Origin: Candidatus Firestoneibacteriota bacterium
Lineage (GTDB): Bacteria; Oederibacteriota; JAAXVQ01
Assembly (NCBI GenBank): GCA_013335425.1
Contig: JAAXVQ010000004.1
Coordinates: 6,441 to 18,783 of the forward strand
Direction: 5' to 3'
DNA length: 12,343 nucleotides
Shown one piece after another: positions 6,910-12,343 of the stretch; the stretch's first letter is position 1, and each line of letters starts with the position of its first letter. Below the pieces are notes generated by a model that saw only the letters and a list, made by a program, of their open reading frames with translations, did no database searches and was not told the origin of the DNA. Both the position numbers and the translations under genes were made by a program.

Positions 6910-7287
6910 TTACTTCTTCTTGGGGCGTTTTAAGCCGTACTTGGAGCGGCTTTTATTGCGGTTCTGCACGCCGGCCGTATCCAACGTTCCCCGTACAATG
7001 TGATAGCGCACACCCGGAAGATCCTTAACACGCCCCCCGCGAATGAGCACAATGGAGTGCTCCTGCAGATTGTGCCCTTCCCCCGGAATGTAGCAAGTGA
7101 CTTCCATGCCGTTGGTCAAACGCACACGCGCGACCTTGCGCAAGGCGGAGTTCGGTTTTTTGGGCGTCACGGTGTACACACGCACGCATACGCCGCGCCG
7201 TTGCGGACAGCCCTTAAGCGCCGGGGCTGAGGTCTTGCTTTTCATCATGTCGCGCCCTTTTCGAATCAACTGGCTAATGGTCGGCAT
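6910..7287 (-). CDS. rpsL: 30S ribosomal protein S12
   Basis: S12 sits at the decoding centre and controls accuracy. The 125-residue protein starts [15 protein letters not shown] from the ATG at 7287, with GGGAGG at 7-nt spacing; a longer in-frame reading upstream would run through a hairpin and lacks similarity. The signature [20 protein letters not shown] is complete with Lys43, and [14 protein letters not shown] is complete, so the two lysine sites where streptomycin-resistance changes usually arise are wild type. It is the first gene behind the leader RNA and the strong promoter, and the head of the str operon. Confidence 0.98.
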
Positions 7288-7311
7288 GGTCTTGCCTCCC
7301 TCGGTAATTTC

Positions 7312-7331
7312 GTAGAGACATTCCGCTCTAC
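7312..7331 (-). repeat. Short inverted repeat just upstream of the rpsL ribosome binding site
   Basis: Minus-strand GTAGAG (7331-7326) and CTCTAC (7317-7312) flank an 8-nt loop. It lies between the leader terminator and the GGGAGG of rpsL. The outer GTAGAG is similar, though not identical, to the TGTAGGG ends of the palindromes around tuf, so it might be a relative of those elements; six pairs alone can also occur by chance. Confidence 0.35.
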
Positions 7332-7340
7332 TTCTTCTGC

Positions 7341-7374
7341 AAAACAAAAAAGACGGAAAACACCCGTCTCTTTT
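7341..7374 (-). terminator. Intrinsic terminator in the leader upstream of rpsL
   Basis: In the minus-strand RNA AAAAGAGACGG (7374-7364) pairs with CCGUCUUUUUU (7356-7346), eleven pairs with one G-U, around loop GUGUUUU, and the 3' arm runs into a U-rich tail ending at about 7341. This is a textbook Rho-independent terminator. It ends about 54-58 nt before the rpsL start codon, downstream of a strong promoter and upstream of the genes that promoter should serve, which is the layout of an attenuator. Confidence 0.85.
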
Positions 7375-7622
7375 GTGAATGGCAAAATGATCCCGAAAAA
7401 TTTAGGATCACTTTCTAAAAACGCCCGCACAAAATGTACTGCAGGAAGACCTGCGCTTGCAGCCCTAAACCCGGCTGAAGCGTGGTTTCTTCATCTCACG
7501 ACGGCTCAGGCAAAAATTCGGCCTGAAACAACTCCGCAAAAGCGTGAGCCTCCCTGGTACTTAAACCGGCTGTCGCTTGCGCCTCCAGGCGAAAAACCTA
7601 AAACCCAGAGTAGCGAAAGAGT
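7345..7622 (-). ncRNA. Structured leader RNA of the str-S10 operon, or an independent small RNA
   Basis: Between the consensus promoter and the terminator lie about 275 transcribed nt with no gene I can support and many complementary arms: UCGCU/AGCGA (7612-7616 with 7573-7577) enclosing hairpin CGCC-UGGA-GGCG (7580-7591); CUCACG/CGUGAG (7543-7548 with 7495-7500) enclosing hairpin UCAGGC/GCCUGA (7506-7526); GCAGG-UCUU-CCUGC (7441-7454); and AAAGUGAUCC/GGAUCAUUUU (7384-7414, ten pairs with one G-U) directly before the terminator. CUCUGG (7605-7610) can pair across the first helix with CCAGGG (7552-7557). I looked for the hallmarks of SRP RNA, tmRNA, RNase P RNA and 6S RNA and did not find them. 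Position suggests transcription attenuation of ribosomal protein synthesis; the ligand is unknown. Confidence 0.6.
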
Positions 7623-7626
7623 CGAG

Positions 7627-7673
7627 ATTATAAAAGATTGCGTATCCTCTGTCAATCTTTTTTATTTAATTTT
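7627..7673 (-). promoter_or_regulatory. Strong sigma70-type promoter with UP-like element
   Basis: On the minus strand TTGACA (7655-7650) and TATAAT (7632-7627) are both perfect consensus hexamers with the optimal 17-bp spacer. The 18 nt upstream (7656-7673) are almost pure A/T, like the UP element of rRNA promoters. Start of transcription is expected near 7620-7623, where the sequence after the -10 box is CTCGAC, moderately GC-rich. This is the only convincing promoter I see in the window and should drive the leader RNA and rpsL onward. Confidence 0.9.
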
Positions 7674-7678
7674 GTGAA

Positions 7679-7698
7679 GAACGGTTTAAAAACCGTTC
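7679..7698. repeat. Perfect stem-loop downstream of rpoC
   Basis: GAACGGTTT and AAACCGTTC are exact inverse arms around a 2-nt loop, starting about 20 nt after the rpoC stop codon. On the minus strand it is followed by UUCACAAAAUUAAAUAAAAA, which has no U-run, so it is at best a weak terminator or a processing and stability element. The preceding GGG on the minus strand gives a GGGGAAC start, similar in style to the other intergenic palindromes here. Confidence 0.6.
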
Positions 7699-7719
7699 CC
7701 CGCCAAACGGACTTTCCGG

Positions 7720-12343
<4,624 letters not shown>

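Follow-up and report, generated by a model that had tools for sequence, protein, structure and literature searches.

The leaders of ribosomal-protein operons are often autoregulatory and lineage-specific, and ribosomal-protein genes are commonly under the control of their own products (PMC11109978; PMC7247131; available parts of both). Upstream of rpsL, Naville and Gautheret (2010; PMC2965389) reported predicted transcription attenuators with alternative antiterminators from Listeria, Xanthomonas, Pseudomonas and Rickettsia, which the accessible portion of their article describes as 'multiform', sharing neither sequence nor structure overall, and their partners as unsettled. In Escherichia coli, S7 represses translation of the str operon at the rpsL-rpsG gap (PMC10931766, as excerpted), and boxA control by NusB-S10 is known from suhB, with putative boxAs at rpsJ (PMC5725501, as excerpted). 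The same excerpt, from Baniulyte et al., places putative boxAs directly ahead of rpsJ in three genera, while two genera have them ahead of operons in which rpsJ comes later. Here we describe a leader located before rpsL in a 12,343-nucleotide (nt) stretch of DNA, hereafter the window, from a Candidatus Firestoneibacteriota bacterium (contig JAAXVQ010000004.1 of a draft genome of 2.6 Mb in 525 contigs). We consider it, with a probability of about 70%, to act in cis as a transcription attenuator for the str-S10 operon, with a switch and a ribosomal-protein feedback of the kind proposed below.

The leader is encoded on the minus strand, in the gap from the rpoC stop (7720) to the rpsL ATG (7287), and is delimited by the following features.

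7627..7655, minus strand: sigma70 promoter TTGACA-17-TATAAT, a 12/12 match, with TTGACA at 7655-7650, a 17-nt spacer, TATAAT at 7632-7627 and an A/T-rich tract upstream
7346..7626, minus strand: leader region downstream of the -10 box, 281 nt counted from the box through the last U of the terminator
7346..7375, minus strand: intrinsic terminator hairpin with U6, from folds and RNAalifold

An earlier note on this DNA, whose span of 7673-7345 includes the promoter, had described a perfect promoter with an A/T-rich tract, a leader of about 275 nt, 54-58 nt between the terminator and the rpsL ATG, and no second promoter after the terminator, and all of this was borne out. Transcription probably starts near 7620, giving an RNA of ~275 nt, and the ATG follows the U run after 58 nt. 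A promoter scan of 7000-8000 listed the sigma70 site at 7655-7627 alone on the minus strand; the other promoter-like site in that interval was a 9/12 match on the plus strand (7025-7053), and shuffled sequence gave a mean of 0.5 such sites (at least 9/12, both strands). The terminator, given eleven pairs in the same note, has six U and a stem of 14 pairs in the long fold and 10 in the short one. A terminator pattern scan of the minus strand did not list this terminator and listed the reverse-complement hairpin on the plus strand. Folding of 7340-7625 gave -104.7 kcal/mol against a shuffled mean of -86.2 (z -3.4; 1/200 shuffles equally good). For the core alone, z was -1.8 in the window, -0.9 in L112 and -2.4 to -4.6 in the four other relatives among the five folded.

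For comparison, 45 genomes of the phylum were used (S12 family match in 40/45), eight of which belong to the window's order. Their leaders form two families, f1 (the window and L112) and the sister family f2 (L113-L118). A leader was found upstream of rpsL in 8/8 order genomes, one per genome, with a common TTGACA-17-TATAMT promoter, a length of 217-279 nt (the values for the window and L112 being two bases short), a conserved core (119-155 nt) that contains a three-stem junction, and a terminator reading GACGG...CCGUC or nearly so, the U run of which ends 23-69 nt before the ATG. At four loci (L113, L115, L117 and L118) rpoC was not found within 0.77-1.57 kb upstream of rpsL. The rpsL gene is essential, and in L115 and L117 the U run is followed by merely 23 and 27 nt before the ATG, which is too short for another promoter; rpsL is therefore reached by read-through, and with an essential gene and no room for a hidden promoter the terminator must be read through.

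The motif was confined to this order in the searches made. In the window's own genome a DNA search returned the locus itself as the sole match, and a pattern derived from the core matched 7/45 phylum genomes, all within the order, and none of the control; the one order genome that it missed, G002, has a spacer of 34 against a permitted 33. A model of the core (R1), whose matches to the eight leaders from which it was built are so by construction, picked out every order genome of the 45-genome set with a single strong match, followed by matches at E 0.65-0.99 in G002, G008, G005 and G012, and in a set of 384 genomes the same eight were the ones at E ≤0.01. Among the candidates scored, R1 gave no convincing copy in the other 37 genomes of the phylum, the filters being strict, with at most 74 candidates scored per genome in the 45-genome set and 8 in the 384-genome set, so that weak relatives may be missed. 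Across 80 named rpsL loci (L061 with only 6 nt upstream) it gave nothing at E 1. In a held-out test, a model made from the six f2 leaders with a structure lacking P1 (see below) recovered both f1 leaders, with E 1e-5 for L112 and 8e-5 for the window; nothing else in 33 sources scored better than E 2.5. Judged on these comparisons, the leader is real, order-specific as far as seen, single-copy and tied to rpsL. In Rfam release 15, the window and its seven relatives had no match at the gathering threshold, and at E up to 10 the best for the window was STnc50 (E 0.046; 25.2 bits against a gathering threshold of 55), covering the 3' end including the terminator.

The elements of the core were derived with RNAalifold from A2, a sequence-only MAFFT alignment of the order leaders. 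Besides P1a (GUAC/GUAC), P1b (GGGAGG/CUUCCC), P3 and the terminator, the result contained two poorly supported pairs; 29 pairs were written from it. In the window the elements, together with the putative antiterminator (AT) strand, are located as follows.

7567..7573, minus strand: AT strand (AT/P0), complementary to the terminator 5' arm and loop at 7366-7360, with one G.G mismatch in the window
7557..7560, minus strand: P1a 5' strand GUAC, from RNAalifold, one two-sided change in one pair
7549..7556, minus strand: P1b 5' strand CAGGGAGG, one-sided changes only, competing with the GAAGA/UCUUC pairing
7495..7548, minus strand: P2, a variable hairpin region in which CUCAC (7548-7544) could pair with GUGAG (7499-7495), by eye
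7484..7492, minus strand: invariant GAAGAAACC, J2-3 and the start of P3, identical in 8/8, with GAAGA that can alternatively pair with UCUUC at 7449-7445
7449..7486, minus strand: P3 hairpin, ACC-A-CG...CG-nA-GGU with an asymmetric internal loop, nine pairs of which three have two-sided changes, 98.6% of cells paired
7444..7452, minus strand: invariant AGGUCUUCC, the P3 3' end and P1b 3' strand, identical in 8/8
7436..7439, minus strand: P1a 3' strand GUAC, from RNAalifold
7371..7435, minus strand: P4, a variable hairpin between P1 and the terminator, from predicted folds, with covariation by eye alone (L113 vs L116)

The 29-pair structure was paired in 97.0% of 231 cells, compared with 43-61% when slid. 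Two-sided changes were seen in four pairs and seven cells, located in P1a (one pair) and P3 (three pairs); as many pairs were obtained in 10/500 shuffles and as many cells in 0/500, and the covariation score of 0.170 (0.128 shuffled) was also reached by 0/500. P1a, P3 and the terminator are kept in the relatives, with compensatory changes in P1a and P3. The P3 loop is between 4 and 25 nt long, depending on the leader, and for the P2 region the window's own minimum free energy fold favours other local hairpins. Among single folds of six cores, the junction is clear in L115, L117 and L118, and variants are found in L114, L112 and the window; the centroid of L112 breaks P1. Because neither GAAGAAACC nor AGGUCUUCC varies among the eight leaders, covariation cannot discriminate between P1b and GAAGA/UCUUC, and both pairings may be needed.

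The terminator 5' arm and loop, ACGGAUGU, complements RCAUCCGU (or variants) immediately 5' of P1 across the order. The resulting helix is paired in 93.7% of 63 cells, against 32-47% when slid, its changes being one-sided wobbles. In transcripts cut before the terminator 3' arm, the predicted mean AT-pair probability was 0.82 for the window and 0.91-1.00 for the other seven leaders; with shuffled upstream sequence the terminator arm was paired at 0.51-0.64 on average, and the observed value was reached in 0-1/40 shuffles for seven leaders. In full transcripts, the AT-forced fold is predicted to lie 0.0-7.5 kcal/mol above the best, and is itself the best in L115 and L118. The basal strands of P4, UUUUGUG/CACAAAA, overlap the terminator A tract in the predicted antiterminated fold. 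Forcing GAAGA/UCUUC cost 0.4-6.0 kcal/mol and gave a predicted fold with the terminator for every one of the eight leaders. The result is informative for L115 and L118 only, the terminator being already present in the best fold of the other six.

The leader has the anatomy of a transcription attenuator, as read from the promoter, the conserved fold elements, the terminator, the conserved antiterminator complementarity and the link to rpsL, and the earlier note's attribution of the leader to attenuation of the str-S10 operon gains from its place before rpsL in 8/8 genomes, the conservation of P1a, P3 and terminator, the compensatory changes and the AT complementarity. In the model that we propose, RNA polymerase would start near 7620 and a folded domain would form, in which a bulged P1 meets P2 and P3 at a three-stem junction that has invariant nucleotides. 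The 5' arm of the terminator, as it emerges, would pair first with the AT element that immediately precedes P1, and the predicted antiterminator helix P0, at the base of P1 and closing over P4, would allow transcription into rpsL. The invariant UCUUC could either form P1b with GGGAGG, a pairing compatible with P0, or extend P3 by pairing with GAAGA, likewise invariant, and as a shared strand it may couple the domain to the terminator. A factor favouring GAAGA/UCUUC would turn the operon off, and the likeliest such factor would be a surplus RNA-binding ribosomal protein encoded by the operon. The folding order, the coupling, the OFF direction and the ligand are what we infer. Such feedback, by a ribosomal protein that the operon itself encodes, would follow the usual logic of control by own products noted at the outset; the leading candidates would be S7, the regulator of str in E. 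coli, and S10 with NusB, by analogy with the boxA leaders of sister families.

Several observations weigh against this model. The order comparison rests on only eight sequences, the number of pair types does not exceed that of shuffles (149/500), and every change in P1b is one-sided. When restricted to the six f2 leaders, RNAalifold omits P1 and returns GAAGA/UCUUC with a small hairpin between AT and the P1b 5' strand. No trustworthy two-sided change supports the AT helix, the sole one counted being the window's row, alignment-shifted by one base, and column shuffles of this helix do not discriminate (191/500). The window's AT is the weakest of the eight, with 8/40 upstream shuffles as high. 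A duplex search, in which the terminators came from scan outputs at 21 loci and from a pattern at 16 (the weak one of L140 picked by eye), was clear for only 4/8 leaders (3-7/300 shuffles as good), the other four having 39-189; the window was the worst (189/300), and in L116 the best duplex lies elsewhere (149/300). Mimicry of 16S ribosomal RNA (rRNA) was looked for as shared words with the 16S of G001 and G004, and none was conserved: the window shares an 11-mer with the G001 16S (shuffles mean 8.6, maximum 12), and L112, also from G001, shares 7-mers only. As modelled, the switch belongs to the family as a whole, and could not be established from the copy in the window by itself.

Leaders before rpsL were also found in the rest of the phylum; in all, with the order included, 39 upstream regions were examined, excluding the partial rpsL of G035. 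A terminator within 260 nt of rpsL was detected automatically in 36/39, and by eye in one more (the weak one of L140), and a promoter of at least 9/12 was present in 29 of the 39. The two loci of f4 (L120, L125) have no rpoC-rpsL gap, no terminator and no leader, and were dropped, leaving 37 for the leader counts. The leaders differ between families, as the available text of PMC2965389 reports for other phyla. In f8 (L123, L130, L133, L136, L139, L141, L145, L148), a conserved leader of ~230-270 nt lacks a recognisable promoter at all eight loci; its terminator loop AGCUCAC complements an upstream GUGAGC(U), and L130 changes both sides (GCGAGCU with AGCUCGC). Other, distinct leaders with promoter and terminator precede rpsL in f3 (L119, L124, L128, L134, L137), f6 (L121) and f11 (L127), and f12 (L131, L142, L143) has a tandem pair of terminator-like hairpins upstream of the gene. 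Of the 80 named rpsL loci, 14 had a hairpin and U run no more than 150 nt from the gene according to a crude finder run with no control.

Four sister families carry a boxA match 10-16 nt into the rpsL leader, in 11/11 loci (f13: L135, L146, L149; f7: L122, L129, L132; f10: L126, L138, L140; f14: L144, L147), against 0/26 elsewhere and 0.26 expected in 37 by shuffling. The pattern, G[CT]TCTTT[AT][ATC]A, was written after seeing the leaders, and resembles the GYTCTTTAANA consensus given in the excerpt of PMC5725501. The predicted probability that boxA pairs with the 5' half of the terminator is 0.87-0.90 in f7 and f13 (6/6), 0.26-0.67 in f10 and 0.00-0.01 in f14, and in the predicted folds of f7 and f13 boxA serves as the antiterminator strand. 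The gene for S10 (NusE), rpsJ, is found downstream in the 6/15 stretches that are long enough (f2, f4, f6, f11, f13 and f14), and S10 presumably lies within the operon in f7 and f10 as well. Stretches resembling boxA also occur upstream of 16S rRNA in one f10 and one f13 genome. These leaders suggest a testable route by which S10 could control its own operon.

It is conceivable that such a feedback of NusB-S10 on the str-S10 operon, via competition for the antiterminator strand, extends through the phylum, the order's version acting via the AGGUCUUCC domain; we regard this broader proposal as unlikely. In f13 and f7, with boxA as the antiterminator strand, free S10 with NusB would block antitermination and shut down its own operon, and in the window's order NusB-S10 would pull UCUUC out of P1b and so release the terminator. 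AGGUCUUCC contains a boxA-like GGUCUU, comparable to GGUCCUU (f1/f2) and GGUCUUU (f8) of the rRNA leaders, and the boxA pattern has 0/8 matches in the order's leaders. By eye, CUCUUU is seen at the extreme 5' end of some order leaders. Other observations by eye concern the 16S rRNA genes: boxA-like GGTCCTTGAAAACT occurs upstream of them in f1 and f2, and two tandem TTGACA/TATAAT-like promoters precede them in f1, f2 and f3 genomes (L170, L171, L181, L182).

Four other explanations were weighed. The perfect promoter and strong terminator would yield a discrete RNA of ~275 nt, as expected of an independent small RNA, with rpsL served by modest read-through or by rpoC-derived transcripts, an alternative that the earlier note had offered. 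However, the only strong copy in each of the eight order genomes precedes rpsL, even where rpoC is not found nearby, the conserved antiterminator would have no evident purpose in a free small RNA, and transcripts from rpoC would have to cross the same terminator; this alternative is accordingly disfavoured and seems quite unlikely. Quite improbable, too, is a constitutive partial termination at a fixed ratio set by the terminator, with the fold protecting the 5' end. The two states are predicted to be close in energy without a ligand, as such a mechanism would have it, but two invariant nine-base stretches in 8/8 leaders seem more than it needs, even if the competing pairings could explain part of their invariance. 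A riboswitch, in which the invariant junction binds a metabolite or ion signalling growth state, would fit the position of the invariant junction and internal-loop nucleotides next to the expression platform. It is very unlikely, given that no Rfam family matches, riboswitches included, and that control by their own products is common for ribosomal-protein genes (PMC11109978 and PMC7247131, in their available parts). Attenuation by a leader peptide from the short frame AUG AAG AAA CCA CG, for which AUGAAGAAACC is present in 7/8 leaders, was rejected as highly improbable, since L112 has GAG instead of AUG and start codon and frame are not conserved, the frame ends differ, no Shine-Dalgarno sequence is seen just upstream (by eye), and the segment is part of P3 and the junction.

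Downstream of the leader, the window continues into the ribosomal-protein series.

7295..7300, minus strand: Shine-Dalgarno sequence GGGAGG of rpsL, by eye
6910..7287, minus strand: rpsL (S12), with a PF00164 match, the first of the series rpsL-rpsG-fusA-tuf-rpsJ-rplC-rplD-rplW-rplB, which runs to 150 in the window

The gene names other than rpsL come from a reading of the translations, and the relatives share the gene order. Two further hairpins flank the leader, one with a U run directly after the rpoC stop (7693-7710, minus strand) and a small one between the terminator and the rpsL Shine-Dalgarno sequence (7312-7331), of which L112 has a counterpart (by eye).

To the rpsL leaders already reported, the study adds a defined motif from a candidate phylum, present once per genome throughout its order and with a plausible switch, and the RNA is small enough for assays with purified proteins. 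A literature search of open-access full text listed no paper on this leader, nor one on boxA as an antiterminator strand. Among known systems, the str control by S7 acts on the same genes through RNA structure, as here, but by translational repression in the rpsL-rpsG gap (PMC10931766, as excerpted), in contrast to the transcription terminator before rpsL in the order. Unlike the boxA leaders attributed to NusB-S10 in the excerpt of PMC5725501, those of the window's order lack a boxA match, which is instead found in the sister families f7, f10, f13 and f14. The rpsL motif of Candidatus Pelagibacter ubique (Meyer et al. 2009; PMC2704228, available part) was compared by description. It lies in the rpoC-rpsL gap before a long ribosomal-protein series, and has a bulged P1 that opens into a three-stem junction with a nearly invariant J2-3. 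This topology agrees with A2 and most single folds, but P1 is absent from the f2-only RNAalifold and rpoC is not adjacent in four loci. The order's leaders differ in the variable length of the P3 loop and in the intrinsic terminator that follows, whereas the Pelagibacter element fails the terminator criteria of PMC2965389 (available part). In their make-up, the leaders of the order resemble the rpsL attenuators of that study: an intrinsic terminator lies in the rpsL 5' leader in 8/8, and an alternative antiterminator is predicted upstream of rpsL across the order, the window alone being not significant (8/40 shuffles). They are set apart by description in belonging to another lineage and in having a conserved 119-155 nt core with a three-stem junction. 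The earlier suggestion of an undescribed leader family thus stands as regards Rfam and not as regards the kind of control, already reported in the portion of PMC2965389 at hand; the fold of the leader appears to be new, and the motif joins the rpsL attenuators as a known kind.
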